A stretch of DNA of 64,000 nucleotides, taken from a virus. Each line of letters starts with the position of its first letter. Positions within the stretch are counted from its first letter, which is position 1. This document shows, piece by piece, positions 31,838 to 62,695 of this stretch. Location of the stretch: the IMG/VR virus record IMGVR_UViG_3300047564_002169, positions 34,587 to 98,586 of that record, one strand, 5' to 3'. A program made the position numbers and the translations under genes. Below the pieces are notes generated by a model. The model did no database searches. It saw only the letters and a list, made by a program, of their open reading frames with translations, and was not told the origin of the DNA.

Positions 31838-32413
31838 ATTTTTATATTCGACGTAGAAACTTTGGGAGTAGAATCCAATGCTGTCGTTTTATCGGCAGCA
31901 TTGATTCATTTTGATCCAGAATCGCAACCCACCTACCAAGATCTTTTAGACGCTGCGTGTTTTGTCAAATTTAATGCCAAACAACAGATGGATTCCGGTC
32001 GCACGGTTTCCAAATCTACTCTACAGTGGTGGAAAACACAACATGAATATGTGCGCAAAGTTTCTCTTGAGCCTAGTCATGAAGATGTTTCTGTTGAAAC
32101 TGGAATGCAAATGTTCTACGATTACATGGCGAAGTACCCAAATGCAAAATCGCAAACTATGTGGGCACGAGGCTCGCTCGACCAACTCGCGATTGATTCT
32201 CTCGCAGTTAAATTTGGCTTAGAAGAAATTACAGGGTATAATGTATGGCGTGATGTGAGAACTGCTATTGATATTTTGTATGGCACTTCCAATGGCTATG
32301 TAGACGTAGAGCACCCTCTCTTCTTGAGGCATGAAGTTATTAAACATATGCCCGTACATGATGCGGCTTATGACGCAATGATGCTTATGTACGGAGTTCC
32401 TTACAAGAATTAA
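31838..32413 (+). CDS. dexA: DexA-type 3'-5' DEDDh exonuclease with AUU start
   Basis: Exonuclease of the DnaQ/DexA fold. The catalytic first motif, F-D-V-E-T (residues 4-8), lies upstream of any ATG, GTG or TTG in this frame. A stop at 31,817 blocks further extension. The best start is ATT at 31,838, preceded by GGGAG at 7-base spacing, giving [10 protein letters not shown] and 191 residues. Another ATT at 31,832 sits too close to the GGGAG. Later motifs include [10 protein letters not shown] and the C-terminal HDAAYDA of DEDDh enzymes. The 3' end overlaps the minus-strand endonuclease gene. Confidence 0.8.
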
Positions 32414-33041
32414 AATGAAACCTAATCATAGTCGGCTTTCCTCCTGTCTTACCGCAGTGTGGGCAAGTTACCGCTGGTTTGGGGTTTCTTAATTTCTGCT
32501 TATGTTCTTCTGAGAAAACTCTACCTCTTAAGTATTCGCTAATCTTGCGCTGTCTTTCAATAATTGCTTCTGAAGTCATATTCTCTTTGAAGTTTTTACC
32601 ATACATAGGATTCTTTTCTCCAGATACATTTTCGCTTATTTTTTTACGCGTTTCTGGAGAAGATGGAATTCCTCTGTTTGTTGCAGGTTTACCTGTTCTT
32701 TGATTGTTCTTTTTAATTTTGGCTTTGGATTCTTCAGTGTGCGTCATGCCATAAACACCATCTCCTCCATCAGTCAGATTTATGAGAATACCAGAACCGA
32801 CATTTTTACGACCATACCAACGGATATAAAATCTTTCTAATGCTAAAGAACCAAGTTCAGTTAAGTTTGTTTCTAGAATTGCAATTCTATGTATATCTTT
32901 GGGAATAGGTAAAAATTTGCGATGAATCGCCCATGCTCTTGTACCTTTACCTTTACCGATGTAGTAAGGCGTACCGTCTTCTCTGAGGTAGGCGTAAACG
33001 TAAAATCCTGGTGGAATGTTATTTCTACTATAAATATTCAT
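32385..33041 (-). CDS. GIY-YIG homing endonuclease on the minus strand
   Basis: The only minus-strand gene in the window. The 218-residue protein begins [20 protein letters not shown], with a GIY-YIG core (YVYAYL...YYIGKGKG), NUMOD3-like repeats ([26 protein letters not shown]) and a C-terminal CPHC-x(n)-HFNSC finger. It sits between dexA and polymerase gene 43. Its start codon is about 65 bases from the gene 43 promoter, and its end overlaps dexA by 29 bases. Its AGGAGTATC ribosome site is on the same strand. Confidence 0.88.
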
Positions 33042-33105
33042 GCTGATACTCCTTAACAGTATTAGAGTCCTTGGAGATTGCCGTCTCGTGAAGGACACTT
33101 TTATT

Positions 33106-33134
33106 TTGACATTACCCATCCCTTAGGGTATAAT
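33106..33134 (+). promoter_or_regulatory. Early-type promoter for gene 43
   Basis: TTGACA, 17 bases, TATAAT, 28 bases before the start of gene 43. The -10 begins a dyad TATAATA-GTATT-TATTATA (33,129-33,147). Confidence 0.85.
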
Positions 33135-33162: not shown

Positions 33163-35661
33163 TTGGAATTTTACACATCTGCACAATCCTGGGGCGACAA
33201 AATCCTCGTTCGAGGTTATGAAAACGGTAGACCGTATATGCGTAGGGTAGATTTCTACCCTACGCTTTTTGTCACGTCTAAAGAACCAAGCACATATAGT
33301 ACTCTTGAAGGTCAATGGGTGGATGAAGTTAAACCTGGAACCATCAAAGAAACAAAAGAATTTGTTAAAAAGTACGAGGATGTGGCAGGGTTTGCTATCT
33401 ACGGTAACACCAATTATGCATACCAGTACATCAGCGATACATATCAAGATGATGTCAACTGGGACATGGAACAGATCAAAGTCTTTACAATTGACATCGA
33501 GACTGAAACCGAGTATGGTTTTCCAGATATCCGTAGCGCCAACGAAGAAGTTTTGCTAATCACTGTCAAAGATCTTATTCAGAAAAAGATCGTTACATTT
33601 GCTCAAACAAAATATGGTGTGTATAACACTCAGCGTAAAAATGTTACGATGATTAACTGTCGTGACGAGCAACAACTTCTTAAAGAGTTTATGATATGGT
33701 GGCAACAAAACTATCCAGATGTAATCACTGGATGGAACACCGACTTCTTCGATGCACCCTATCTCATCAAGAGAATCTATAACCAACTTGGAGAGGCGTT
33801 TGCCAAGAAGATTAGCCCATGGGGTATCATCAACGAACGCAATACATTTATCAAGGGTAGTGAAGAACTGCACTACGATATTTCTGGTATTAGTCAGCTT
33901 GATTATCTGCAGTTGTATAAAAAGTATACCTACACAAAACAAGAATCTTATCGTCTTGACTACATCGCTCAAGAAGAACTAGGTGACAAGAAGAAAGAAA
34001 ATCCTGGAACAGATTTCCGTGATTTCTATACCAATTATTGGGACCATTTCGTTGAGTATAACATTCATGACGCAGAGTTGGTTGACCAACTTGAAGACAA
34101 GATGCGTCTGCTTGAACTGCATCTAACTATGGCATACAATGCCAAGATTAATTTCGAGGATGTTTATTCACAGGTTCGTATGTGGGATACGATTATCTAC
34201 AATCACCTACGTAAGAAGAACATTGTGATTCCAATGAAGGTTTCTAATGGTGGTAAGTTTGAGCAATTCGAAGGCGCTTATGTTAAAGATCCAATCATTG
34301 GTCAACATAAGTGGATGGCATCTTTTGATTTGAACAGCCTATATCCGCACTTGATTATGCAGTATAACATCAGTCCAGAAACTTTGACTAGCGAGAAACT
34401 CTCCGTGACTGTTGATAAACTGCTCAACAAAGAGATTGATACATCTCACGCAAAACAGAGAGATCTTTGCCTCACTGCTAATGGTTGGACATATCGCAAA
34501 GACATCAAAGGATTTATGCCTGAGTTGATGGAACAGATGTACGTCAACCGTAGTAAGTATAAGAAGCAGATGTTGAAGGTTGAACAAGAATATCAAAATG
34601 ACAAAAGCAAGAAGCACTTATTGAAAGAAATTAGCAGACTGAACAACCTGCAGATGGCTATGAAGATTGCGCTGAACTCAGCTTACGGCGCAATGGGTAA
34701 CCAATATTTTCGTTACTTTGATATCCGTATGGCTGAGGGTATTACCACTTCTGGTCAATTGTCAATCCGTTGGATGGCAAACAAACTTAATGCCATGCTT
34801 AACAAGACGCTTAAAACTCAAGACAGAGACTTTGTTGTGGCGATTGACACTGACTCGATCTATCTGACGTTGGAAGAACTTGTCGAGAAAGTTGTCAAGG
34901 ATAAAGATACCGAAGGTAAGATCAAATACATGGACCGTATTTGTGAAGAGGTAATTCAACCATTCATCGACCAAGGTTATCAAGAGTTGGCTGAGTATAT
35001 GAATGCTTACTCGCAGAAGATGCAGATGAAGCGAGAGGTTCTAGCTGATAAAGCTATTTGGACGGCAAAGAAACGCTATGTTATTAATGTGCATAATTCT
35101 GAAGGTGTTCAGTATGCAAAACCTAAAGTGAAAGTCATGGGGTTGGAGATGGTTAAGTCTTCAACTCCAGCTGTCATTCGCGATAAGTTGCGCGACTCAC
35201 TGCAGGTTATTCTTCATGGAACAGAGAAAGACCTTCACAAGTATGTCATGTCGTTTAAACAAGAATTTGACAAAATGCCAGTGGAAGATATTGCGTTTCC
35301 CCGTTCTTGTAATGGGCTAAAAACCTATGCTGGTACTCCGATCTATGTTAAAGGCACCCCCATTCAAGTTCGTGGCGCGTTGCTTTACAATCATCACCTG
35401 AAGCGTCTTGGATTGAATAAAAAGTATCAAGCAATTCGTGATGGTGATAAGATTAAGTTTGTTTATCTGAGAACACCAAATCCAATTCAGGAAGATGTTA
35501 TTGCATTCAGCCAGAGACTGCCGAAAGAACTAAATTTAGAAGCATACATAGATTACGATAAACAATTTGAAAAGGTTTTCCTTGATGCTTTACAAATTGT
35601 CATCGAATCGCTGGGGTGGAAAACACAAGAGGAAACTTCTTTGGAAGACTTCTTTGGATAA
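33163..35661 (+). CDS. 43: DNA polymerase gp43 (family B)
   Basis: Replicative polymerase with proofreading. The 832-residue protein has Exo I DIE at 111-113, motif A DLNSLYPHLI at about 389-398 and motif C DTDS at 562-565. All are intact. It is one continuous gene, unlike the split versions in some relatives. The reading frame opens with TTG at 33,163 (MEFYTSAQ), preceded by TTTGGAG. An in-frame ATT at 33,160 is the only close alternative and no ATG is available. A poor start could limit its synthesis. Confidence 0.96.
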   Translation: MEFYTSAQSWGDKILVRGYENGRPYMRRVDFYPTLFVTSKEPSTYSTLEGQWVDEVKPGTIKETKEFVKKYEDVAGFAIYGNTNYAYQYISDTYQDDVNWDMEQIKVFTIDIETETEYGFPDIRSANEEVLLITVKDLIQKKIVTFAQTKYGVYNTQRKNVTMINCRDEQQLLKEFMIWWQQNYPDVITGWNTDFFDAPYLIKRIYNQLGEAFAKKISPWGIINERNTFIKGSEELHYDISGISQLDYLQLYKKYTYTKQESYRLDYIAQEELGDKKKENPGTDFRDFYTNYWDHFVEYNIHDAELVDQLEDKMRLLELHLTMAYNAKINFEDVYSQVRMWDTIIYNHLRKKNIVIPMKVSNGGKFEQFEGAYVKDPIIGQHKWMASFDLNSLYPHLIMQYNISPETLTSEKLSVTVDKLLNKEIDTSHAKQRDLCLTANGWTYRKDIKGFMPELMEQMYVNRSKYKKQMLKVEQEYQNDKSKKHLLKEISRLNNLQMAMKIALNSAYGAMGNQYFRYFDIRMAEGITTSGQLSIRWMANKLNAMLNKTLKTQDRDFVVAIDTDSIYLTLEELVEKVVKDKDTEGKIKYMDRICEEVIQPFIDQGYQELAEYMNAYSQKMQMKREVLADKAIWTAKKRYVINVHNSEGVQYAKPKVKVMGLEMVKSSTPAVIRDKLRDSLQVILHGTEKDLHKYVMSFKQEFDKMPVEDIAFPRSCNGLKTYAGTPIYVKGTPIQVRGALLYNHHLKRLGLNKKYQAIRDGDKIKFVYLRTPNPIQEDVIAFSQRLPKELNLEAYIDYDKQFEKVFLDALQIVIESLGWKTQEETSLEDFFG

Positions 35662-35955: not shown

Positions 35956-37029
35956 ATGAGTATTTTAGATAAGATTAAAAAGAATAGCACCATTAAAGAT
36001 TCAGCGATTCTTTCTGAATCAAAATTCTTCAAGAAGAAGGATATGATTCCTACTTCTGTTCCGATCATCAACGTGGCTTTGTCTGGTCGTTTGGACGGTG
36101 GGTTAACCCCAGGAATTACAATGTGGGCTGGTCCAAGTAAACATTTTAAAACAGCATTCTCTTTGTTGATGGCGAAGTCCTACATGGACAAGTATGAAGA
36201 CGCTGCTCTTTTATTTTATGACTCTGAGTTCGGTACTCCGCAGTCTTATTTTGACACTTTCGGTATTGACACCAAACGAGTTGTTCATACCCCATTGACT
36301 GACGTTGAGCAATTGAAGTTTGATATCATGCAACAATTGCAAAACGTAGAACGCGGTGACCATCTCATTATTGTTATTGATTCTATCGGAAACCTTGCGT
36401 CTAAGAAAGAAGTTGAGGATGCGCTGGAAGGTAAGTCTGCGGCAGACATGACTCGCGCAAAACAAATGAAGTCGTTATTTCGAATGATCACACCCCATTT
36501 GAATCTTAAAGACATTCCATTGGTTGTAGTCAATCATACATATATGGAAATTGGTATGTTTCCCAAAGCTATCGTCGGCGGGGGAACTGGTGCGATGTAT
36601 TCGGCTGACAATGTTTATATTCTTGGTCGTCAACAAGAAAAAGAAGGAACAGAAATTGTTGGTTACAATTTTATCATCAACGTAGAAAAGAGCCGTTATG
36701 TTAAAGAAAAATCTAAAATTCCTGTTAGCGTATCTTTTGATGGTGGTCTTAGTAAGTGGAGCGGCTTATTGGATCTCGCTCTTGAATCCAAGCATGTGAT
36801 CAAACCAAGTAATGGGTGGTATTCCAAATGTGATCCCGATACTGGTGAAGTAGAAGATAAGAAATATCGTATTAAAGAAACAGAAACAAAGGATTTCTGG
36901 ATGAGTATTCTAACAAGCAAATCATTTTATGATTTTATTAAGAGTAAATACTCGATTGGTCAGAACGGGCAAATGTTGCAAGAAGATGACCTGAATAAAG
37001 CATTAGAGGATTTGGAATTTGATGAGTGA
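35956..37029 (+). CDS. uvsX: UvsX recombinase (RecA-like)
   Basis: Strand-exchange recombinase for recombination-dependent replication; UvsY is its mediator. The 357-residue protein (T4: 391) has a T4-type Walker A GPSKHFKT at 59-66, Walker B LIIVIDSIGNL and the VVVNHTY segment. The C-terminus is acidic (ALEDLEFDE). It overlaps the next gene by 8 bases. Confidence 0.95.
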   Translation: MSILDKIKKNSTIKDSAILSESKFFKKKDMIPTSVPIINVALSGRLDGGLTPGITMWAGPSKHFKTAFSLLMAKSYMDKYEDAALLFYDSEFGTPQSYFDTFGIDTKRVVHTPLTDVEQLKFDIMQQLQNVERGDHLIIVIDSIGNLASKKEVEDALEGKSAADMTRAKQMKSLFRMITPHLNLKDIPLVVVNHTYMEIGMFPKAIVGGGTGAMYSADNVYILGRQQEKEGTEIVGYNFIINVEKSRYVKEKSKIPVSVSFDGGLSKWSGLLDLALESKHVIKPSNGWYSKCDPDTGEVEDKKYRIKETETKDFWMSILTSKSFYDFIKSKYSIGQNGQMLQEDDLNKALEDLEFDE

Positions 37030-37351
37030 TCATTATGTAATTCTTGAACATAAACACCATGGTCTGCAGACAATAAAATTGACTGCAGGACCATTTTCAG
37101 GTATAATCTATACTTACGGTAAGATTCAATTTCAGGAAGACGAACAACATGATTGTGTTCGTCTTAAGTTTCAATATGACATTATAGATTATGCTGATAA
37201 AGTTTTGCATGATGCGGCTAGTTTTGAGTCATACATAGGTAGTATTCTTGAAGAATTAATTTATATTGGCGTTAAAGAAAACAGTATTACATACACAGGT
37301 GGAATTGATGAGAATAGAGCAGAAGATTCTAACCAATCTTATACACGATGA
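37022..37351 (+). CDS. Small unknown protein between uvsX and 41
   Basis: A 109-residue protein (MSDHYVILEHKHHGLQTIKL) with predicted beta strands, then a helix. It overlaps uvsX by 8 bases and gene 41 by 44, so translation is coupled. Marine T4-like phages often have a gene of this size here. Function unknown. Confidence 0.7.
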   Translation: MSDHYVILEHKHHGLQTIKLTAGPFSGIIYTYGKIQFQEDEQHDCVRLKFQYDIIDYADKVLHDAASFESYIGSILEELIYIGVKENSITYTGGIDENRAEDSNQSYTR

Positions 37352-38696
37352 GCAATATTGCCGGAAGGTGGTTCCTTTCATCAAGAAAGAATATTTTGCA
37401 GATAAAAAAGATTTAGTCGTAGCATCAGAGATTATTAAATTTTTTAACAAGTATAATAAAACTGCAACAAAAGAAATTCTTCAGATTGAAGTTCAAAACC
37501 GTAAAGATTTAACTGACAAAGAATTGGCTGATGTTATTCAGTTTATAGGTTCGTTGGAAAATCAACCTGTCAATCAAGACTGGATGCTCGAAAATACTGA
37601 GAAGTTTTGTAAGGATCGCGCAGTTTATAATGCGATCCTTAATTCTATTTCGATCATTGACGGACGAGATAAGGAACACACTAAAGATGCTATTCCTACT
37701 ATTTTATCTGATGCTCTTGCCGTGTCTTTTGATAGTCACGTCGGTCACGATTATCTTGATGACTACGAATCTCGTTATGAGTTTTACCATCGCGTTGAGG
37801 AGAAAATTGCTTTTGATTTGGAGATGTTTAACAAAATCACCAAAGGTGGATTGAGTAAGAAAACTCTGAACATCGCATTAGCTGGTACTGGCGTTGGAAA
37901 ATCTCTGTTCATGTGCCACGTTGCTGGTTCCTGTTTGACGCAAGGTAAAAATGTATTATACATAACGATGGAAATGGCAGAAGAACGAATCGCAGAACGT
38001 ATTGACGCGAACAAGTTGAATCTGACCATGGACGAACTGAAGGTGATAGACAAAGACATTTTTGACAATCGTATCGCTAAGATTCGCGAAAAAACTCAAG
38101 GTAAATTGATAATTAAGGAATATCCAACTGCCAGCGCACACGCTGGACATTTTCGAGCCTTGCTTGAAGAATTGAAATTAAAAAGAGAATTTACTCCTGA
38201 TATTATTTTCATTGACTATCTTAATATTTGCGCCAGCCAACGAATGAAGCAAGGTGCTAATGTAAACTCTTATACATATGTGAAGGCGATTGCTGAAGAA
38301 CTACGTGGTTTGGCAGTTGAATATAATGTACCGATTGTTAGCGCGACTCAAACAACTCGATCTGGATACACAAATTCAGACCCAGGGCTTGAGGATACTT
38401 CTGAATCTTTTGGTCTACCTGCCACAGCAGATTTCATGTTTGCGCTGGTCAGCAACGAAGAATTGCAATCATTGAATCAAATTATTGTTAAACAGTTAAA
38501 GAATCGTTACAATGATCCAAATTTCTATAAACGATTTGTGATAGGAATTGATAGAGCGAAGATGAAACTGTATGATGTTGAATCATCTGCGCAAGACAAT
38601 CTATCCGACGCGGGACAAGATGATGAGCCCATGTTTGATAAATCTTCATTCGGGCGCAGACAAAAAACAGAATCATTTGAGGGATTTAAGTTTTAG
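37308..38696 (+). CDS. 41: Replicative helicase gp41 (DnaB family)
   Basis: Hexameric 5'-3' helicase of the replication fork, partner of primase gp61. The 462-residue protein (T4: 475) has Walker A AGTGVGKSL at 192-200, Walker B IIFIDYLNIC and the VSATQTTRSG sensor. I place the start at ATG 37,308 (MRIEQKIL) with an AGGTGG ribosome site. Confidence 0.94.
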   Translation: MRIEQKILTNLIHDEQYCRKVVPFIKKEYFADKKDLVVASEIIKFFNKYNKTATKEILQIEVQNRKDLTDKELADVIQFIGSLENQPVNQDWMLENTEKFCKDRAVYNAILNSISIIDGRDKEHTKDAIPTILSDALAVSFDSHVGHDYLDDYESRYEFYHRVEEKIAFDLEMFNKITKGGLSKKTLNIALAGTGVGKSLFMCHVAGSCLTQGKNVLYITMEMAEERIAERIDANKLNLTMDELKVIDKDIFDNRIAKIREKTQGKLIIKEYPTASAHAGHFRALLEELKLKREFTPDIIFIDYLNICASQRMKQGANVNSYTYVKAIAEELRGLAVEYNVPIVSATQTTRSGYTNSDPGLEDTSESFGLPATADFMFALVSNEELQSLNQIIVKQLKNRYNDPNFYKRFVIGIDRAKMKLYDVESSAQDNLSDAGQDDEPMFDKSSFGRRQKTESFEGFKF

Positions 38697-38702
38697 GAGA
38701 AA

Positions 38703-40070
38703 ATGATGGTAAAGGTAATAGTAGCAAAACAAAAATATGACGCTTCACATTTATTGGGACAATTCGTTGATGAACGACATTATGATGTCCTGGTTGAAGA
38801 AGACTGCGATGTTTATGCTCCACCTGACTGCGATCTTGGTACTCAGACTTCATGCTCGAATACATGCAATACTTGTGATAAGGGTATGGATGAGAAAAAG
38901 ATTATATTCAAGTTTCGTAAAAATTACTTTTCAAAAGAACTTCAAGAACAAGCGTACCTTGGTCTAAAAGAAGCCGCGACTGAAACACAGAATCGCGGTC
39001 TTGCTGCTGGTCCACGCGAAGGCAAACTTGGTAATCGTGAATGGGTTACTGATTATGAATTTGATGTTATTGATTACTTCAGTAACCCAAAGTCAAATCT
39101 ATTCGGCGCAGACCCTATTGAAGAAATAAAAGAATTGCATAAGAATAAACCTGCGCAACCATCCAATAAAAATAACGTGTGGTCTATCCAAGCAGTTAAA
39201 CAAGATGAGTTTGACTTCGAACGTTGGATTGAGATGGTTAAGCAGATGGAACCAGAAGATCAGAAAGCAGAAACCCGCAGGATGGTTCAGAGATATATCT
39301 GTCAAACCACATATGCTAATGGCGTTATGTCTGGTATCGCTGGGTGGTTCGACCGATATCCTCGTATCCCCTATGGTCGAGCGACATCATACACTGCCAA
39401 TAATTATGACAAATTCAAACAGTCCTTCCCATTTTTACAGCATCTTGCTGAGGGTTTTAAAGAGTTGTTACCTTGGCGGTATGGTAATCAGATGAAAGCG
39501 GCGAAAAAGTTGGACCCATCATTCTTGGTTCCTGGAACTCCATTTACTACGATCACAGTGAACAAAACCTTTCGAACTGCCGCACATTATGATGCAGGTG
39601 ATCTGGATACAGGTTTGTCCAATCTTTTAGTCCTTTCCAATAATGGTAATTACAGGGGTGGGTATTTAATAGCACCAGAATATCGAATTGCTGTCAATGT
39701 GCGCCCCGGCGATTTGTTATTGATTAATAATCATGAAGTTATGCATGGTAATACACCAATTGAATTGCTTGATGACCAAGCAGAACGTGTTTCATTGGTA
39801 TGTTACTTCCGCGAGAAGATGCTTGAGTTGGGTAGCAAACAATATGAAGATTGTCGTAGAGAATATGTTGAATCGCGCAGACTTAATAAAGACCACCCAG
39901 GGCACAAACATGAAGATGGTACAGAACGTCATTTGTGGAATGGCGTCAGTATTGGGATGTGGGAAGACAAAGAATGGTATGATTACTGTGAAGCTAAAAT
40001 CGGGCGCGAAGAAATGCTGAAGATGCATCCGGAAGCGAATAAAACTTCATTAGAGGAGTTTTTCGGATAA
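38703..40070 (+). CDS. TET/JBP-type 2-oxoglutarate/Fe(II) dioxygenase
   Basis: A 455-residue protein. The dioxygenase core has the facial triad in TFRTAAHYDAGD (His ~295, Asp ~297) and NHEVMHGNTP (distal His ~348), with the 2-oxoglutarate-binding Arg in AERVSLVCYF (~362). This arrangement, with the long HYDAGDL...GGYLIAPEY stretch between, is that of TET/JBP enzymes, which hydroxylate thymine or 5-methylcytosine in DNA. A Cys cluster at residues 35, 43, 51, 55 and 58 may bind zinc. First gene of an overlapping seven-gene operon with modification enzymes. Substrate base is inferred, not seen. Confidence 0.82.
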   Translation: MMVKVIVAKQKYDASHLLGQFVDERHYDVLVEEDCDVYAPPDCDLGTQTSCSNTCNTCDKGMDEKKIIFKFRKNYFSKELQEQAYLGLKEAATETQNRGLAAGPREGKLGNREWVTDYEFDVIDYFSNPKSNLFGADPIEEIKELHKNKPAQPSNKNNVWSIQAVKQDEFDFERWIEMVKQMEPEDQKAETRRMVQRYICQTTYANGVMSGIAGWFDRYPRIPYGRATSYTANNYDKFKQSFPFLQHLAEGFKELLPWRYGNQMKAAKKLDPSFLVPGTPFTTITVNKTFRTAAHYDAGDLDTGLSNLLVLSNNGNYRGGYLIAPEYRIAVNVRPGDLLLINNHEVMHGNTPIELLDDQAERVSLVCYFREKMLELGSKQYEDCRREYVESRRLNKDHPGHKHEDGTERHLWNGVSIGMWEDKEWYDYCEAKIGREEMLKMHPEANKTSLEEFFG

Positions 40071-40747
40071 TGTGTGCTATCGTAGGAGCAATCCTTATTG
40101 AACCTTCGAAAGAAGATTTGTTAATGTTGCATCGGGTTTTCCTCGAATCTAAAATTAGAGGAAAACACGCAACAGGAATCGCTTATGTCAAACATGATAA
40201 AGTTATTATTGAGAAGCATCCAGTGTCTGCTGATAAATTTCCTTTTAACTTCTCGAAATATATCAATGAAGATGGAAATCTTTACTTAATTGGACATTGT
40301 CGTTACAGCACTTCTGATCTTGAGTATAACCAACCAATTGGTGATGACGATTCTGCAATAGTTCATAATGGTGTCATCACTCAAGAATTGCCAGAAAATT
40401 GGAAAAACATTTATGGTTACGAGACTACAACTAAAAATGATAGTGAGTTAGTGCTACATTCTCCGGATCCACTGCGTGAGTTTAGTCATATGTCGATGGG
40501 CGTCTGCAAGATAACAAAAGATAAAAGATTGCAATTTTATCGCAATGGTAAGCGCCCATTATATTTGTCTTATGTTCCGAATGGGAGTATAATTACTTCT
40601 ACTAGAGATATAGCAAACCGTTCCGGAATCAATGGGAAGCATATTGAAATCCTGATGAACCACTATATCACATTTGATGAAAAACTTGTGATGATGATCG
40701 AAAAAGTCAACGTTGCGCATGCCGTGGATTACCAAATTGGAGTTTGA
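40070..40747 (+). CDS. Class II glutamine amidotransferase (Ntn-type)
   Basis: A 225-residue protein with Cys2 as N-terminal nucleophile (MCAIVGAIL) after Met removal. It also has GHCRYSTSD and IVHNGVIT, the glutamine-binding and oxyanion motifs of class II amidotransferases. It has no synthetase domain, so it probably passes ammonia or handles a glutamine side chain for the next gene's amidoligase. Its start overlaps the dioxygenase stop by one base (TAATG). Confidence 0.85.
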   Translation: MCAIVGAILIEPSKEDLLMLHRVFLESKIRGKHATGIAYVKHDKVIIEKHPVSADKFPFNFSKYINEDGNLYLIGHCRYSTSDLEYNQPIGDDDSAIVHNGVITQELPENWKNIYGYETTTKNDSELVLHSPDPLREFSHMSMGVCKITKDKRLQFYRNGKRPLYLSYVPNGSIITSTRDIANRSGINGKHIEILMNHYITFDEKLVMMIEKVNVAHAVDYQIGV

Positions 40748-41719
40748 ATGAAATATAATACTGATGAGTTTAGCTACGGAGTTGAGCTAGAGTATGGTGA
40801 TTGCTATCGCTTCTGCGAATTGCCGGATGGTGCTCAGTGGAATGATAAAGACAATACCTGTGTTAGCAGTACAGGTATTGCTAACGATCCAACTGGTAAG
40901 ATTTATGCTTATGGTGGCGAGATCAACACCCGTCCAACAATGACGATTGCTGAGCAAATTGAACACATTGCCAAGATTAATGCGGCATTATATCCTGCTC
41001 CGATTGTTAATTACCGGAGCAACCTTCATATTCACATTCGTGTACCAAATCTTCATAATAATCTCGAGGATTGTAAGAATCTGTTACGCTATATTGAATG
41101 CTACCAGCAACAGGCATTTGATATCGTTGAAACCATTCCTGTCCCAAACAAAAATGTTCTGCCGCCAGAACAATACGAGTGGGCACTGAAGCGTATGAAG
41201 CGCCGTAAGAAGTCACATCAGCATAAGTTACCCCCTGCTCGAGTTGCAGAGATGTTAGCCTCAGATAATACCTACGACTTCTATGTTAAACACGCGCACA
41301 AAGATGCCAAGGGCGAACCTTCATGGTTCCAATGCCCGCGAGCAGGCATCAATCTGCGTCAGATGTGGGAAGAAACAAACACAATCGAGTTTCGCCACTT
41401 CCCAGGAACGCTCGATATGGTTGAGATGGAATCATGTATTCGTTGGTGCAAAGAGTTTCTCAATGCGGCATTGAACGAAGAAGATGTCTCTCCACGCGAA
41501 TTCCATGCTGAAAGCGTGTGGAAGTTTCCTGACTTTCAACCATATGAGTTTGAGACTGAACAAGTATATCAGTGGACCAACTTTGATGGTAATACAAAGA
41601 AGGATATTGAGAAGCGTATTGCTGCGCTCAGAAAAGAAATAGACATCGATGCAATCGGTAAAGTTACATCCCTTGATGTATTTCCTATCATGCGTCGTTT
41701 ACAATCAGAGGGTTTATGA
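40748..41719 (+). CDS. Amidoligase (COOH-NH2 ligase, glutamine-synthetase fold)
   Basis: A 323-residue protein of the phage amidoligase type. Signatures are YGVELEYGD at residues 10-18, SNLHIHIRVPN and INLRQMWEETNTIEFRHFPG, which carry the Glu/His/Arg residues of the ATP site. Such enzymes join a carboxyl and an amine using ATP. The pairing with a class II amidotransferase is characteristic. In this operon the target may be a modified base or a cofactor; this is inference. The stop overlaps the next ATG. Confidence 0.8.
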   Translation: MKYNTDEFSYGVELEYGDCYRFCELPDGAQWNDKDNTCVSSTGIANDPTGKIYAYGGEINTRPTMTIAEQIEHIAKINAALYPAPIVNYRSNLHIHIRVPNLHNNLEDCKNLLRYIECYQQQAFDIVETIPVPNKNVLPPEQYEWALKRMKRRKKSHQHKLPPARVAEMLASDNTYDFYVKHAHKDAKGEPSWFQCPRAGINLRQMWEETNTIEFRHFPGTLDMVEMESCIRWCKEFLNAALNEEDVSPREFHAESVWKFPDFQPYEFETEQVYQWTNFDGNTKKDIEKRIAALRKEIDIDAIGKVTSLDVFPIMRRLQSEGL

Positions 41720-42138
41720 AAGTATTGTTCCTTTGCCATGGCAATGTAAATCGCAGCGCAGCTGCGGAGATTATCACTAAGCAAGACTATCCTCACATTG
41801 AAGTTAAGTCAGCTGGGCTTAAGACTACAGATGGTAGGATCACTGCCAAGAAGATGCGTGAGGTTCTTAATCATCATGGTTACAAGACAGAGGGCATTCG
41901 TTCCACTGCAGTCACTCAAGAGTTGGTTGATTGGGCAGATGAAATTTTCTATATGGACGATGCGAATAAAAAGAGATTTGTCGATAAATTCGGAGACTTA
42001 TCGAAGGCACAGAAGCTGTCTAATTTAATTCCTGGAGTTAACAAGATTCCAGATCCAGCATTTGCCGATGGTACTGATATGCACCATGAAGTTGTTAACC
42101 TAATTAAGACTGCTCTGAATACATGGACTACCGCTTAA
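41716..42138 (+). CDS. Low-molecular-weight tyrosine phosphatase-like protein
   Basis: A 140-residue protein with the C-x5-R loop CHGNVNRS (Cys7, Arg13) near the N-terminus and a general-acid DP in KIPDPAF. The fold is that of LMW-PTP and arsenate-reductase-like phosphatases. In this operon it may remove a phosphate from a pathway intermediate, or regulate by dephosphorylation; both are inference. Overlaps the amidoligase by 4 bases and the next gene by 16. Confidence 0.85.
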   Translation: MKVLFLCHGNVNRSAAAEIITKQDYPHIEVKSAGLKTTDGRITAKKMREVLNHHGYKTEGIRSTAVTQELVDWADEIFYMDDANKKRFVDKFGDLSKAQKLSNLIPGVNKIPDPAFADGTDMHHEVVNLIKTALNTWTTA

Positions 42139-43139
42139 CAGACAATCGTAGAGAAGCATTTATACGCTGGTACGCATGGTCGTTAAAATATGATGATTGC
42201 GACCCTGCTGTTTGGGCTACGAATTATCTAAACAAACGCTATGAGCACAATGACGAACAGCGTCTATGGCTCTGCTGGTTATATGGTAACACATATTATC
42301 TGCCAACATCATGGATTCTCATGAATGAATTTCCAGACTTTGAGTTGGCTACGGTAGATCGTATGGAGCAATGGAACACTGCTAATTATAAACGACTGCG
42401 GTATCAAACAGACACGAAGTGGAATAAAGGACATCTCCCATCCATGTTCGCGTCTTATCAAACATTTATTGGAAATAAAACACAACGAGAATTGTTAGAG
42501 TCATATTATGGACACAATGAGGAAGAAAATTTTGATAACTTGTGGAAAAGCGTTAAAAGTGGTTTGCATAAATTCGGGCGTTACAGCACTTGGTTTTATC
42601 TTCAGCATCTTAAGCACACCGCTAATATTCGGATCAATCCTACTTCTCTTATGTTGGACGATTTTGATGGTTCTCGTTCTCATCGTAATGGGCTTCTGTT
42701 CGCCCTCGCACAAGAGCACAATGTGGATAGAAAACTCACTGCTGGAGAGTATTCGAATCTTGAGTCTCAAGCCTATGACATTCTTTGTGAGACGAAAACT
42801 AGATTTCCAGAACTCGCGAAATCTATAGATTATTTTACTATGGAAACTTGTCTGTGTTCATTCAAAAAAGTTTTTCGTGAACGTCACGGTCGCTATCTCG
42901 GGTATTACCTAGATCGTCAGGCTGAAGAAATTATGCAGTGTGAACAAGATGGATGGTATGGTATCGATTGGGATGTTTTATGGCAAGCGCGTGAAGAAAC
43001 GATTGACTCCAGGCTAGACCATAAACGAGGTATTGATAAAGAAAAGTTTTCTTGGTTTTTACACACTGGTAAATTTCAAAATTTAGAATGGATGTTTAAT
43101 GATGAGTGCGCGGTTTTAATTGGATTGGAGAATTTTTAA
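42123..43139 (+). CDS. Putative alpha-glutamyl/putrescinyl-thymine pyrophosphorylase-like protein
   Basis: A 338-residue helical protein. It shows LWLCWLYGNTYYLPTSW at about residue 46, a middle KFGRYSTWFYLQHLK near 160, then LDDFDGSRSHRNG. These resemble the aGPT-Pplase group, helical proteins (related to DNA glycosylase folds) found with base hypermodification genes and fused or paired with P-loop DNA kinases. The match is by eye, so family membership is moderate. Overlaps the phosphatase gene and abuts the next by TAATG. Confidence 0.6.
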   Translation: MDYRLTDNRREAFIRWYAWSLKYDDCDPAVWATNYLNKRYEHNDEQRLWLCWLYGNTYYLPTSWILMNEFPDFELATVDRMEQWNTANYKRLRYQTDTKWNKGHLPSMFASYQTFIGNKTQRELLESYYGHNEEENFDNLWKSVKSGLHKFGRYSTWFYLQHLKHTANIRINPTSLMLDDFDGSRSHRNGLLFALAQEHNVDRKLTAGEYSNLESQAYDILCETKTRFPELAKSIDYFTMETCLCSFKKVFRERHGRYLGYYLDRQAEEIMQCEQDGWYGIDWDVLWQAREETIDSRLDHKRGIDKEKFSWFLHTGKFQNLEWMFNDECAVLIGLENF

Positions 43140-43453
43140 TGATAACTACTACTTATTATAATGATGCAGACGCAATTGATCACTTGATATCGAAATGGAA
43201 CTTCAATCGCCTTGTCATCAAACATAGCGTATCAGAATTACAGATAGCGTCTCTTGGAATGGAGCATTCAAATTCATATACTACTGCGATTAAAGAAATG
43301 CTGTCGAAGCGCGCTGCTCAAGCTCTGGTGAGTAAAATCGCGTTCACCAGAAGATATGATTATAACAGTTTCACTCATGAATTTATAGGGCGTGTTTGGT
43401 GTTTCACTGAGCAGGAATTGCAACAACTAATTAAGGAAGCTCGAAATGTTTAA
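43139..43453 (+). CDS. Unknown small protein in the modification operon
   Basis: A 104-residue protein (MITTTYYNDADAIDHLISKW) with helix-rich content and a basic patch (RRYDYNSFTHEF). It overlaps both neighbours, so it is made in step with the kinase and the aGPT-Pplase-like protein. No known domain recognised; it may be an accessory subunit. Confidence 0.65.
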   Translation: MITTTYYNDADAIDHLISKWNFNRLVIKHSVSELQIASLGMEHSNSYTTAIKEMLSKRAAQALVSKIAFTRRYDYNSFTHEFIGRVWCFTEQELQQLIKEARNV

Positions 43454-44051
43454 TGATAAGTTAGGTACTTCGGACAGCGTCAATATTCAGAAAGTGACCA
43501 ACTCTATGAAAGTTCGCAAACTTATTGCAGTTGGTGGTAGCCCAGGAACAGGTAAAACTACTCTTTTTCGTAAATTTATGGAGGGTAAATCTTGGATTCA
43601 AGTCGAGCCAGCCAAACTGATTTCTGCTATGTATAATGCAGAACTAGATCTATATGTCCTAGGTAAATACGAAGAAGGTGAAACCTTCGCCGGAACTGAT
43701 CGCCTTTCTATGGCAGTTCAGCCGCCAATGCAAGAATGGATCGCTTCCCACAACTGCAACATTCTTTTTGAGGGTGACCGAATTTTTAATCAGTCTTTTC
43801 TAGAATTCGCTATGGGGCTTCCGCATACTGACCTACAGGTAGTTATCTTAACTGCACCCAAAGAACTCTTAGAACAACGCTATAAAGACCGTGGTTCAGA
43901 GCAATCTGAACAATTTCTAAGAGGGCGAGAAACCAAATACAGTAAAATTCAATCAAACTTTGACTTGATGTCATATATCACTGAGTTTAAAAACACCAAT
44001 TTAGACGATCAGGCGAAGGTTCTTACATTTCTGAATAAACATTTAGGGTGA
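43446..44051 (+). CDS. P-loop kinase, candidate 5-hydroxymethyl-pyrimidine DNA kinase
   Basis: A 201-residue protein with P-loop GGSPGTGKTTLF near residue 28 and a later ILFEGDRIF (Walker B) and ERYKDRG-type lid (LEQRYKDRG). It has the size of nucleoside or polynucleotide kinases. In phage thymine-hypermodification pathways a P-loop kinase phosphorylates 5-hydroxymethyl-dU in DNA, and its place beside TET/JBP and aGPT-Pplase-like genes suggests the same. An internal Met (residue 21) just before the P-loop is an alternative start. Last gene of the operon. Confidence 0.65.
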   Translation: MFNDKLGTSDSVNIQKVTNSMKVRKLIAVGGSPGTGKTTLFRKFMEGKSWIQVEPAKLISAMYNAELDLYVLGKYEEGETFAGTDRLSMAVQPPMQEWIASHNCNILFEGDRIFNQSFLEFAMGLPHTDLQVVILTAPKELLEQRYKDRGSEQSEQFLRGRETKYSKIQSNFDLMSYITEFKNTNLDDQAKVLTFLNKHLG

Positions 44052-44115: not shown

Positions 44116-44916
44116 ATGGCTCAAGAAGGGTTTCTTTATGAAGAAAAGGCTTATGCCGCTCTTCACAAATATAATATAACTACAGGTGGAACTGCAAGAG
44201 CATCCCACGACAAACCAGATTTGACCATACAAAAAGGTAAGACTAAAATTGGTTGTGAATTAAAAAATTCACCAACTGCAGCAGGTTCATTGGTTTTAAA
44301 ATATATAAACGGTAGCTGGGAATATGGGGACACAGGCGATGAAGATTCTCCAGAAAAAGATTTTCTAAAAGCTCTTGGTGTTTCTGCTAGATTATTACAA
44401 ACAATGACCAGTAAATGGAAGGGTAAAACACCCATGCTTCAAAATGAGCCTTCCGGTAAGAAAAAACTTGCTATTGGTAGTTGGAGTGTTTTAGCTGATA
44501 AAGATAGAGCGTATAAGCATGACTTGGCTATGTTCGGTGGACAAAATGAGGTGCATATTGATGTAGGCGCAAAGGCAGTTTGCGATTATTATTTAACTAA
44601 AAAATGTTCATATATCAATATTGGTACTCATGGATTTTTTACCTTAAATGGTAAAGACGCGCTGGGATTGAATAAAAAACTTAGAGACTTAAAACATCCA
44701 CTTATTCCTAATTTTGCCAACAGTGCTTCTTGTAAAATTAGAGTTAGGGTTCAAGTTAAAAGCACTTCTAAAAAAGACTATCAGTTTGTTATGACATTGC
44801 AGTTTAGTAATGTCATAAAGTCACCATATAATATCGCCCCTTTAAAAACAGGTTCAAAATCTGATATTGACTTAACTAAACTTAACGCAGACCCTATACT
44901 AATGGCATTTACATAA
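44116..44916 (+). CDS. PD-(D/E)xK nuclease-like late protein
   Basis: A 266-residue protein. Residues about 30-60 read DKPDLTIQKGKTKIGCELK, the spacing of a PD-(D/E)xK nuclease core. The remainder is unrecognised. It starts the block of late, probably head-associated proteins. Nuclease activity is inferred from one motif only. Confidence 0.5.
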   Translation: MAQEGFLYEEKAYAALHKYNITTGGTARASHDKPDLTIQKGKTKIGCELKNSPTAAGSLVLKYINGSWEYGDTGDEDSPEKDFLKALGVSARLLQTMTSKWKGKTPMLQNEPSGKKKLAIGSWSVLADKDRAYKHDLAMFGGQNEVHIDVGAKAVCDYYLTKKCSYINIGTHGFFTLNGKDALGLNKKLRDLKHPLIPNFANSASCKIRVRVQVKSTSKKDYQFVMTLQFSNVIKSPYNIAPLKTGSKSDIDLTKLNADPILMAFT

Positions 44917-56273: not shown

Positions 56274-57299
56274 ATGTTATTCATTGATGTAAAATACACC
56301 AACATGCTTGGTGCTCGTTTACGCAACTTCAAACAAAAAAACGAATACCTCTGGAACTACTCGTGTCCAGTTTGCGGGGATTCTTCGCGCAACAAACTTA
56401 AAGCGCGTGGCTACATCTATCGCGCAAAACAGGATTTGTTTGCGAAGTGCCACAATTGTGGGTATTCTACCAACATTGGTAATCTTATCAAACACGTTGA
56501 CGTTAATTTATATGATCAGTATGTTCTTGAACGCTACAAAGCTGGTGCAACGAAGCATAATGCCCACAAAGACGTAGCGCCTCTTATCCCAGAGCCTAAA
56601 AAAGTAGAACTGCTTGAGGATGAGGTACTCTCCTCACTAAAAAGATTGGACGCGTTGGATGTTTCTCATCCAGCTGTGAAATATGTATTGGAAAGAAAAA
56701 TTCCGCGTGATAAATGGCATCTTCTTTACTTTGCGCCTAAGTTTAAAAAGTTCACCAATTCAATCACGCCAAAGTTTGCAGAGCCTATTGTTGATGACCA
56801 CCCAAGGATGATTATTCCTTTTTTCAACAGAGCAGGTAAATGTTTCGCGTTTCAAGCTAGAGCATATGGTAACGAGGAGCCTAAGTATTATACCATCAAG
56901 GTGGATGAGACAGAAGAAAAGATTTATGGTTTAGACAGAGTTGATTTTGGAAAAAGAATCTATGTTGTAGAAGGTCCAATTGATAGTTTGTTTCTACCAA
57001 ACGCTATTGCAGTATCCGGTTCTAGTTTCGACACCCCTACTATCCGTCAGTTGCTCACTAATGCAACCATTGTGATGGACAACGAACCGCGAAACAAAGA
57101 GATCGTTAAACAGTTACAAAAATATATTGAGTTAGGCTATTCTGTCTGCATGTTCCCATCGAGTGTACAACAGAAAGACATTAATGATATGATTTCACAC
57201 AGTGGAATGACACCAGACCAAATTGTAGAACTCATAAATACAAACACTTATACTGGTATGGAAGCAAAATTGCAGTTTATACATTGGAGAAAAATTTGA
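56274..57299 (+). CDS. 61: DNA primase gp61
   Basis: Makes RNA primers at the fork together with helicase gp41. The 341-residue protein (T4: 342) has an N-terminal zinc ribbon (CPVCGDS and CHNCG at about 34-66), then TOPRIM-like YVVEGPIDSLFLPNAI. The ATG at 56,274 is preferred over an upstream in-frame start, and has a GTGGAGAT ribosome site. Confidence 0.93.
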   Translation: MLFIDVKYTNMLGARLRNFKQKNEYLWNYSCPVCGDSSRNKLKARGYIYRAKQDLFAKCHNCGYSTNIGNLIKHVDVNLYDQYVLERYKAGATKHNAHKDVAPLIPEPKKVELLEDEVLSSLKRLDALDVSHPAVKYVLERKIPRDKWHLLYFAPKFKKFTNSITPKFAEPIVDDHPRMIIPFFNRAGKCFAFQARAYGNEEPKYYTIKVDETEEKIYGLDRVDFGKRIYVVEGPIDSLFLPNAIAVSGSSFDTPTIRQLLTNATIVMDNEPRNKEIVKQLQKYIELGYSVCMFPSSVQQKDINDMISHSGMTPDQIVELINTNTYTGMEAKLQFIHWRKI

Positions 57300-57316
57300 A
57301 CAAAAGGAATGGTGAT

Positions 57317-57997
57317 ATGAAAGTTAGACTAATATCATATAGCAAACCAACAGAAGCACTTGAGGATAGTAACATTTCCGATATCCAAGAATTAGTAGCA
57401 TTTTGCGCTAGAGTTTCTAATCCTAACAATCAATATAATAATACTACGTCATCAAAATTAGTAAAGTATTTAATCGCCAATAAACACTTTAGTCCACTAG
57501 AAATGGTGAATGCATGCATTGAGATTGAAACGACTCGCGATATTGCTCGACAGATTCTAAGACATCGTTCTTTTTCATTTCAAGAATTCTCTCAACGATA
57601 TGCTGATCCGACTAAGGATCTCTCATTTGTTCTACGTGAAGCGCGTTTACAAGACGAAAAGAATCGACAAAATAGTATTGAGATGGAACCCACCATCGGT
57701 AACGTGATGATCCAAGATGAGTGGAAACAACGTCAACAAGATCTTCTTCGTATGGTCGCTGACACATACAACTGGGCTATTAGTAAAGGCATCGCCAAAG
57801 AACAGGCAAGAGTGGTACTTCCAGAAGGGCTCACTGTGTCTCGTCTTTATATGAACGGCACATTGCGTAGCTGGATACACTACTGCGAATTAAGAATGGC
57901 GAATGGAACACAAAAAGAACACGCTGATATTGCTAAAGAAATTGCCAAGGTAATTGCTGAAGTGTTTCCATTGGCTAATGAATTTGTAAATCAATAA
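57317..57997 (+). CDS. thyX: Flavin-dependent thymidylate synthase ThyX
   Basis: Converts dUMP to dTMP using FAD and methylene-tetrahydrofolate. The 226-residue protein has the ThyX motif RHRSFSFQEFSQRY at about residues 84-97. Its dTMP supply would feed T-containing DNA, the likely substrate of the TET/JBP-type enzyme. The ATG at 57,317 follows an in-frame stop-free stretch and lies 17 bases after the primase stop. Confidence 0.95.
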   Translation: MKVRLISYSKPTEALEDSNISDIQELVAFCARVSNPNNQYNNTTSSKLVKYLIANKHFSPLEMVNACIEIETTRDIARQILRHRSFSFQEFSQRYADPTKDLSFVLREARLQDEKNRQNSIEMEPTIGNVMIQDEWKQRQQDLLRMVADTYNWAISKGIAKEQARVVLPEGLTVSRLYMNGTLRSWIHYCELRMANGTQKEHADIAKEIAKVIAEVFPLANEFVNQ

Positions 57998-59871: not shown

Positions 59872-60456
59872 ATGAATTATCAAAAAATTTATCAATCCCT
59901 AACTAAATCTAGACAAGAAATCAGAGAATCAACCAGATGTGTAGGGTTTGAATTGCATCATATAGTTCCAAAATGTATGGGTGGTTCGAATGAAAAGGAA
60001 AATTTAGTTCTGTTGACGTACAGAGAACATTTTATTGCACATTGGTTATTGACAAAGATCTATCCAGATAACCCTAAAGTTCATTATGGCTTTTTGTGTA
60101 TGGTGCGAGATCCTCATGGAGACAGAAAGTTAACTTCTAGAATGGTTGAAACTATTAAGAAAAATTACTCTGAGTTCAAAAAATGGCATTCAAAAATCAA
60201 CAATCCTGGAAGATCTGAAACCTCAAGAGATGCAGCAAGAAAAAGAATGACGGAAAGAAATCCAAATCAAGGCGGCGCAACTAATCATACAGCATACCCA
60301 GTAGAAGTCACCTTCTCTGATGGTAGGGTGGAAACGTTCGAATATATGAAGCAAGTATCTGAAAAACTAAATGTTCCTTATAGTTCCCTGAAAGTCGCTA
60401 ATAGAAATAGAACAGAAATGAGAAAATATAACATTAAAGGTATCAAGAAAATATGA
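59872..60456 (+). CDS. HNH homing endonuclease
   Basis: A 194-residue protein with an HNH core ELHHIVPKCMGGSNEKENLV (His, Asn, His) and later DNA-binding-like segments (KRMTERNPNQGG; KQVSEKLNVPYSSLK). It is inserted between nrdA and the next gene. A typical mobile gene in phage nrd regions. The stop overlaps the SNase-like start by four bases. Confidence 0.88.
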   Translation: MNYQKIYQSLTKSRQEIRESTRCVGFELHHIVPKCMGGSNEKENLVLLTYREHFIAHWLLTKIYPDNPKVHYGFLCMVRDPHGDRKLTSRMVETIKKNYSEFKKWHSKINNPGRSETSRDAARKRMTERNPNQGGATNHTAYPVEVTFSDGRVETFEYMKQVSEKLNVPYSSLKVANRNRTEMRKYNIKGIKKI

Positions 60457-62296: not shown

Positions 62297-62695
62297 ATGT
62301 CTTGGATATATCAAGGAATTCCGCTGACTGAAATTCCAGAAGGCTATGCTGCTTTTGTTTATCTTATCACAAACAAAATAAACAATAAAAAGTACATTGG
62401 TAAAAAACTATTTTATTTTTCAAAAACTAAAATATTGAAAGGTAAAAGGAAACGAATTAAAGTTGAATCGGATTGGAAAGATTACTGGTCATCTTCTGAA
62501 GATGTTAAAAAAGATGTTAAGGAATTGGGCGAAGAGAACTTCGAAAGAACTATATTAAAGTTGTGTATAAATAAAGGCAGTGCTTCTTATTTTGAGGCAA
62601 AGGAACAATTTATCAACGAAGTTTTGGAAAACCCTGACCTGTGGTATAACGGTCAAATACACGTAAGGGTGCACCGCTCACATATTAAAAAATGA
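62297..62695 (+). CDS. GIY-YIG endonuclease-like protein
   Basis: A 132-residue protein with a GIY-YIG-type segment (YAAFVYLITNKINNKKYIGK) and Lys-rich region. It is smaller than the other two GIY-YIG genes and may be a Seg-like nuclease without extra DNA-binding parts. Such genes are common in marine T4-like phages. Confidence 0.7.
   Translation: MSWIYQGIPLTEIPEGYAAFVYLITNKINNKKYIGKKLFYFSKTKILKGKRKRIKVESDWKDYWSSSEDVKKDVKELGEENFERTILKLCINKGSASYFEAKEQFINEVLENPDLWYNGQIHVRVHRSHIKK

Follow-up and report, generated by a model that had tools for sequence, protein, structure and literature searches.

A seven-gene operon of a T4-like phage with a predicted role in thymine hypermodification

We have analyzed a 64,000-nucleotide stretch of viral DNA (the window), which corresponds to bases 34587-98586 of the 98,586-base IMG/VR record IMGVR_UViG_3300047564_002169. 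It contains a compact cluster of seven open reading frames, all on the plus strand (38703-44051), whose neighbours abut or overlap by 1-16 bases. A preliminary description of this DNA had pointed out these overlapping genes and suggested that they form a pathway for DNA-base hypermodification. The coordinates of the reading frames agree with that account, and Pfam places six of the seven proteins in the families that it had named; the remaining one, with 104 amino acids, has no family.

Genes of the cluster

The first gene (38703-40070) begins 6 nt after the stop of a helicase gene (38696). It codes for a TET/JBP-type Fe(II)/2-oxoglutarate (2OG) dioxygenase of 455 amino acids (Tet_JBP, 1.7e-25). 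The iron ligands HxD..H and the 2OG-binding arginine are present (H295, D297, H348 and R362), and are invariant in all 94 TET sequences compared. A profile of ten phage TET domains matches human TET2 at an E-value of 6e-9, with the HxD motif, the distal histidine and the arginine in register. We propose that this enzyme oxidises thymine in DNA to 5-hydroxymethyluracil. The residue equivalent to the TET2 pocket residue His1904 is an arginine, Arg370, in 91 of the 94 sequences. An assignment of base specificity from this active site was rejected: Arg370 replaces the TET2 histidine, and the few other TETs differ.

TET/JBP-related proteins are misleadingly annotated as "SNF2 DNA repair protein" in phages Cr30, DLP6, S-CBWM1 and HTVC112P (loci L001, L002, L004 and L005). 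In phage C48C1 (L003, 8938-12385) the TET gene is followed by an unassigned 344 amino acid protein and by a UDP-galactopyranose mutase, and no ADDT (see below) has been found in the genome; a glycosylated variant is conceivable there.

The second gene (40070-40747) codes for a stand-alone class II (Ntn) glutamine amidotransferase (GATase_6, 1.1e-8). Its nucleophile and glutamine-binding residues are in place, and Cys2, Arg78, Asn100, Gly101 and Asp124 are invariant in 82 of 82 sequences. The protein has 225 amino acids and a single domain, with no synthase domain in the chain, so the partner which uses the ammonia must be another protein. We propose that it supplies ammonia for the ADDT step.

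The next two genes form a pair. The amidoligase (40748-41719, 323 amino acids; Amidoligase_2, 9.6e-6) scores 26.1 bits, above the curated cut-off of 22, and residues E13, E15, E58, H94, H96, N202, E214 and R216 are invariant in seven sequences. Its profile gave nothing convincing against PDB sequences. This enzyme is predicted to acylate an amine linked to the base, or to make the donor. The low molecular weight (LMW) phosphatase (41716-42138, 140 amino acids; LMWPc, 2.8e-17) has the CX5R(S/T) loop (C7, R13, S14) and the DP general-acid motif (D113, P114); CX5R and DP are kept in all five sequences compared.

The fifth gene (42123-43139, 338 amino acids) codes for a DNA-base transferase of the ADDT family (amino acid:DNA transferase, PF18724; 1.2e-21), as the aGPT-Pplase-like family is now called. 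A profile search against PDB sequences gave nothing convincing. A structure model, built from the window and IMG/VR sequences only, has a predicted local distance difference test score (pLDDT) of 92. Its only strong fold matches in the PDB are 8z2m and 8z2n, the 5-phosphomethyl-deoxyuridine (5-phosphomethyl-dU) glycinyltransferase of a Pseudomonas phage (probability 1.00, TM 0.51-0.55, E-values 0.015-0.036), followed by weaker matches to AGOG DNA glycosylases. In a viral fold library, ADDTs from phages of Mycobacterium and Salmonella are among the matches. We propose that the protein replaces the activated 5-phosphomethyl hydroxyl.

The 104 amino acid protein (43139-43453) has no significant family match, and its structure model was discarded (pLDDT 64). 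We have found 99 relatives in the fetched loci, beside the kinase. It is a possible kinase partner, standing in for the HMUDK helical domain. The last gene (43446-44051, 201 amino acids) codes for a P-loop kinase (Ploopntkinase3, PF18751; 1.6e-7), whose Walker A Lys37, DR and lid arginine residues are invariant in 61 of 61 sequences. It falls in phrog_800, which also holds the kinase of phage Simon that acts on 5-hydroxymethyldeoxyuridine (5-hmdU) in DNA, and we propose that it is a 5-hydroxymethyl-pyrimidine DNA kinase. This PHROG, home of 5-hmdU-type DNA kinases, is misleadingly labelled "terminase small subunit".

Conservation and variation of the cluster

The source is classified from its replication genes as a fragment of a T4-like phage. 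It contains a family B DNA polymerase (33163-35661), a UvsX recombinase (35956-37029, plus strand; T4_UVSX_C and RecA) and a gp41-type replicative helicase (37266-38696, plus strand; DnaB_C, 2.1e-21). The helicase gene lies directly upstream of the cluster, and UvsX anchors a position that is conserved in relatives. Our IMG/VR scans have detected 255 proteins related to the ADDT and 318 related to the TET. Nearly all the loci that we have fetched present the order UvsX, 110 amino acid protein, helicase, TET, amidotransferase, a variable slot, ADDT, small protein and kinase. Seventeen TET-seeded loci extend for 6 kb or more downstream; all of them contain amidotransferase, ADDT and kinase, and none has a gene for a thymidylate synthase (TS) or a C5-methyltransferase. 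This order recurs across many contigs and is therefore not due to chance.

The slot between amidotransferase and ADDT holds a GNAT acetyltransferase (PF00583) in 94 loci, versus an amidoligase in about 59. The amidoligase is found with the LMW phosphatase in 26 cases, with phosphatase and a GT4-type glycosyltransferase in 18, with a ParB_N-like protein in 9 and alone in 5. A single locus (L174) has both GNAT and amidoligase. In loci with the ParB_N-like protein (L126, 4921-6276; also L064, L066, L086 and others), the amidoligase is diverged and there is no LMW phosphatase.

Some relatives have additional enzymes: a second 2OG oxygenase, a B12-type radical SAM protein or a tryptophan-halogenase-like flavoprotein. 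For example, locus L030 (10139-11614) has a full-length flavoprotein of this last type (PF04820, 8e-93) between ADDT and kinase, so that a halogenated base is conceivable. B12-binding radical SAM proteins are found at the same place in L102 (12870-14393), L083 and L098. Caulobacter phage Cr30 (L001, 12027-17894) has a weak match to a TET-associated glycosyltransferase and a myo-inositol-1-phosphate synthase between ADDT and kinase, suggesting an inositol-derived or sugar decoration of the modified base.

The amidoligase gives the strongest lead on the identity of the base. An alignment scan of IMG/VR, followed by profile-based analysis of gene context, has detected 83 relatives, nearly all within hypermodification clusters, and 50 loci with full context. 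Two layouts are found. In 27 of these loci the amidoligase occurs with TET, amidotransferase, ADDT of the window type and kinase, with no TS or DAO. In 14 others its neighbours are a TS-family enzyme, an ADDT of a second type and domains of 5-hmdU kinases, and TET and amidotransferase are absent; a DAO flavoprotein is present in 12 of these 14. The second layout is of the M6/YuA kind. TET and TS are never found together in a full-context locus, nor are amidotransferase and DAO, and a C5-methyltransferase is absent from all of them. Only 4 of the 50 have no ADDT/kinase-cluster neighbours. The LMW phosphatase adjoins the amidoligase in both TET-type and TS-type clusters: the two genes are an exchangeable cassette rather than a combination unique to the window. 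We have also detected amidoligase relatives on contigs of 58-133 kb (L231, L232, L226 and L234) near which no match to the partner families was found; they possibly represent another use of the enzyme.

The second layout is well illustrated by phage Simon, which has Pfam matches to ADDT, DAO, Amidoligase_2, LMWPc, HMUDK_HMUD1, HMUDK_hel and Thymidylat_synt, those of the amidoligase and HMUDK being below the curated cut-offs. Its TS-family enzyme is 50% identical to gp17 of YuA, annotated as a putative deoxyuridylate hydroxymethyltransferase; YuA also has ADDT, PALP, radical SAM, HMUDK and HMUDK_hel. Asparagine or aspartate at one TS residue sets the choice between dUMP and dCMP (PMC8670742), and every TS protein that could be read in these clusters has asparagine, none aspartate.

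Two contigs bridge the two layouts. Contig L216 contains in a row a 5-hmdU DNA kinase 2 (PF18747, 8.9e-27), amidotransferase, ADDT, amidoligase, LMW phosphatase, HMUDK_hel and a uracil-type TS, with a dUTPase nearby. Its amidotransferase, ADDT and amidoligase are 39%, 47% and 39% identical to the window type. Contig L214 has an HMUDK-type kinase, amidotransferase, ADDT, phosphatase and amidoligase, and a TS-family gene with asparagine several kb upstream. The tailoring enzymes of the window therefore also occur in 5-hmdU pathways. As judged from these clusters, TET would most simply replace the TS enzyme in providing the hydroxymethyl group. Another contig of this kind, L213 (50.6 kb), has neither TET nor TS on the fragment and is neutral for the base question.

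Target base and proposed pathway

The preliminary description had seen no dUMP or dCMP hydroxymethylase in the window, and this holds for the whole 98,586-base record, where we have found no TS-family enzyme (PF00303). No C5-methyltransferase (PF00145) has been found in this record either. Neither family is present in five relatives of 161-171 kb, nor in a 166.8-kb relative which carries the amidoligase. The control for the PF00145 search, phage Melnitz, was matched at 2e-56, and its C5-methyltransferase, used as query, found no match in ten relatives. The phage encodes ThyX (57284-57997, plus strand; Thy1, 1.2e-41), beside ribonucleotide reductase genes, and therefore makes ordinary dTMP. This suits replication with ordinary thymine and a later modification. 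Comparison with the related clusters indicates that, of the two targets previously considered, thymine is the most likely one, rather than 5-methylcytosine (5mC).

A PF00303 protein of Cr30 was considered as a hydroxymethylase and rejected: its strong family match (3.9e-113) and Asn motif look like those of an ordinary thymidylate synthase. In Methylophilales phage Melnitz-1 (L158, 2758-6838), an HhaI-like C5-methyltransferase, a TET/JBP protein, an unassigned 427 amino acid protein and a related kinase are found in a row upstream of UvsX, and we have found no ADDT in this phage. This row is apparently the cytosine counterpart of the window pathway, with its third enzyme unassigned.

The gene identities, the intact catalytic residues, the conserved association and the lack, in the available sequence, of other enzymes for the first step lead us to suggest that the cluster is probably a post-replicative pathway for thymine hypermodification; its base, step order, intermediates, product and purpose are those which we infer from the genes. 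TET/JBP would hydroxylate the methyl group of thymine in DNA, giving 5-hydroxymethyluracil, the same job that the dUMP hydroxymethylase does at the nucleotide level in M6, YuA and ViI. The P-loop kinase would then phosphorylate the hydroxyl to give 5-phosphomethyl-dU. A 5-hmdU DNA kinase is known to phosphorylate 5-hmdU in DNA, on which transferases then act (PMC6449724). In the next step, ADDT would displace the phosphate, probably with glutamine-derived ammonia from the class II amidotransferase, to give 5-aminomethyl-dU directly. Such a step would replace the glycine transfer and the flavin (DAO-type) enzyme of TS-type clusters, which, as Lee et al. are said to have found in 2022, proceed by glycine transfer and a flavin-dependent lyase to 5-aminomethyl-dU, which can be acetylated. 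Direct formation of the amine by amidotransferase and ADDT is suggested by the fact that the amidotransferase occurs where DAO is absent and vice versa. Finally, the amidoligase would join a carboxylic acid or an amino acid to the amine, as an alternative to the GNAT found in most relatives: two ways of acylating the amine are suggested, since GNAT and amidoligase alternate in one slot. The LMW phosphatase may remove a phosphate from the substrate or the product of the amidoligase step. A likely purpose of the modification would be protection from host nucleases.

The preliminary description had proposed that the dioxygenase makes a hydroxyl on DNA, which is then activated and coupled to a nitrogenous group, and the gene families, the intact active sites and the conserved core support it. 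It had also suggested a survey of gene co-occurrence, in which the TET-amidotransferase-ADDT-kinase core turns out to be syntenic in many IMG/VR contigs. Its idea of a nitrogenous group may be kept, with the addition that the amidotransferase goes with ADDT more than with the amidoligase. As a tentative generalization, in a widespread T4-like group of phages a JBP-like hydroxylation of thymine in finished DNA might be followed by direct amination by ADDT and amidotransferase, and then by addition of an amide-linked amino acid or peptide-like group. If this were so, it would be the first known case of a phage TET that acts on thymine, of an ADDT that uses ammonia and of an Amidoligase_2 enzyme with a DNA base as its target.

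Other explanations of the cluster may be considered. The nearest one keeps thymine as the target and places the amidoligase first: amidotransferase and amidoligase would make a small amine or amino-acid amide, ADDT would couple it to the activated base and the phosphatase would finish the small molecule. ADDTs that have been characterised in other systems move an entire amino acid, as does the glycinyltransferase 8z2m, and the amidoligase gene of the window comes directly after the amidotransferase gene. Nevertheless, most relatives keep amidotransferase and ADDT with GNAT instead of amidoligase, and TS-type clusters hold the amidoligase without the amidotransferase, so these two proteins are separable. 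We regard this order as improbable, although it is the strongest of the competitors. More doubtful is the idea that amidotransferase, amidoligase and phosphatase are an unrelated cassette for amide chemistry on a protein, a peptide or the cell surface, merely lodged in the operon. PaP3-type phages do have GATase_6, Amidoligase_2 and COOH-NH2 ligase proteins in a region with neither TET nor ADDT close by, but nearly all the amidoligase relatives with full context are found in ADDT/kinase clusters of two unrelated layouts, with the four exceptions mentioned above.

The target might also be cytosine. A C5-methyltransferase, from the host or from a phage gene outside the contig, would produce 5mC, which TET would oxidise to 5-hydroxymethylcytosine (5-hmC), and kinase, ADDT and amidoligase would build on this base. 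The phage TETs studied so far reportedly act on 5mC (this is attributed to Burke et al., 2021), and the Melnitz row, with an HhaI-like C5-methyltransferase, TET and a related kinase, also lies just before UvsX. However, neither the record nor any of its near-complete relatives gave a C5-methyltransferase match, the tailoring genes in common are found elsewhere together with uracil-type TS enzymes and 5-hmdU kinases, and the fold of ADDT matches the 5-phosphomethyl-dU enzyme; Melnitz shows no ADDT. The cytosine route thus appears unlikely. A restriction panel of 18 enzymes is reported for phage DLP6; it has not been used as indirect evidence, and DLP6 shows no ADDT. Finally, the cluster might act on the nucleotide pool or on RNA, with the kinase phosphorylating deoxynucleoside monophosphates and the TET-like enzyme acting on RNA or on a free nucleotide. 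Many P-loop kinases phosphorylate nucleotides, and the profile matches include generic AAA models. We consider this highly improbable: the best solved relative of the oxygenase is TET2, and in the phages studied the 5-hmdU DNA kinases and the subsequent transferases act on DNA (PMC6449724).

Several points weigh against thymine hypermodification as we propose it. The base pocket of TET cannot be read across, since Arg370 stands where TET2 has histidine. The kinase by itself is no proof of thymine, because a related kinase sits with TET and a C5-methyltransferase in Melnitz. A search of the record for HMUDK_hel (PF18723) gave no match, with no positive control sounding in that search. The direct use of ammonia by ADDT is deduced from gene pairing only, and the roles of the amidoligase and phosphatase are predictions. 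Amidoligase and class II amidotransferase also occur together in PaP3-like phages, away from TET and ADDT. The locus counts are not dereplicated, and the relatives share ancestry. The phage is known here from the sequence of a 98.6-kb contig alone, and a C5-methyltransferase or hydroxymethylase could lie beyond it; the near-complete relatives argue otherwise.

A few other genes of the window should be noted. The gene just past the cluster (44116-44916) is similarly placed in several relatives, with 51-57% identity; it has no Pfam family and a weak match to phrog_26930. Homing-endonuclease-like genes (NUMOD3, weak HNH, SegE GIY-YIG) are found near the DNA polymerase and ribonucleotide reductase genes, at 32385-33119 (minus strand), 59872-60456 and 62297-62695. 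A role of the cluster in anti-phage defence was considered and rejected, PADLOC gave no convincing match.

Significance and comparison with known systems

If our proposal is correct, a nucleotide hydroxymethylase of the TS family and a TET-type oxygenase of polymer DNA, whose chemistries are unrelated, feed a single line of thymine tailoring. This would explain how thymine hypermodification could be acquired by phages that keep their nucleotide pool. The swaps of TET for TS, amidotransferase for flavin enzyme and amidoligase for GNAT would give gene-by-gene predictions, and the enzymes would provide defined amine or amide handles on thymine in ordinary DNA. Whether prokaryotic TET/JBP enzymes act on thymine becomes a testable question in culturable phages, Caulobacter phage Cr30 and the Coopervirus mycobacteriophages.

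Several known systems have something in common with the window. The phage TET cytosine clusters, with C5-methyltransferase, TET and TET-associated glycosyltransferase (TAGT), share the TET/JBP hydroxylation step on polymer DNA, whereas in the window cluster no C5-methyltransferase or TAGT has been found and there is an ADDT instead. The base J system of kinetoplastids (JBP1/2; JBP is described in PMC6449724) shares the TET/JBP hydroxylation of thymine in DNA that we propose for the window, but there it is followed by glucosylation, here by kinase, ADDT and amidoligase. Synechococcus phage S-B43 makes 5-carboxymethylcytosine-glycine with CmoX/CmoY, where an ATP-dependent phage ligase also builds an amide bond on a DNA base; the base is cytosine, however, the chemistry is that of Cx-SAM and the ligase is homologous to asparagine synthetase, not to Amidoligase_2 (PMC12783734). 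The module of Pseudomonas phage PaP3 (L160, 3436-7554) has GATase_6 and Amidoligase_2 proteins, as well as the COOH-NH2 ligase, together in one operon. On the other hand, no TET, ADDT or DNA kinase is seen nearby, and its amidotransferase domain is part of a longer protein of 517 amino acids.

The thymidine clusters of M6, YuA and ViI are closer. They have ADDT, a P-loop kinase of the same PHROG and genes for amino-group tailoring, and the YuA-like phage Simon has the same amidoligase-phosphatase pair as the window. However, these clusters start from a TS of the dUMP-hydroxymethylase type, carry HMUDK_hel and use DAO, pyridoxal-phosphate or radical SAM enzymes, whereas the window cluster starts from TET and has a class II amidotransferase. 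As far as sequence comparison goes, the cluster would work by analogy with M6/YuA thymidine hypermodification. It is not a strict member of this class, because a TS-family first step was looked for and not found.

The most similar arrangement is that of the Coopervirus mycobacteriophages. Genes gp2-gp4 of Bane1 code for adjacent Tet_JBP, ADDT and Ploopntkinase3 proteins, the Tet_JBP match being below the curated cut-off. As in the window record, neither PF00145 nor PF00303 is found in the 69.3-kb genome of Bane1. The differences are also clear: no amidotransferase, amidoligase or LMW phosphatase is detected in the 7.8 kb around the trio, the ADDT is only 27-28% identical to that of the window, and the phage is of an unrelated type. 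Clusters of the TET-ADDT-kinase type were reportedly predicted by Iyer et al. in 2009 and 2013, and we know of no description of a version with TET, class II amidotransferase, amidoligase and LMW phosphatase. The preliminary description had suggested that the combination of genes may be new. This does not apply to TET, ADDT and Ploopntkinase3, which are already adjacent in Coopervirus; it may apply to the version with amidotransferase, amidoligase and LMW phosphatase. As judged from its genes, the cluster has the Coopervirus layout, to which an amidotransferase and an amidoligase-phosphatase cassette are added.

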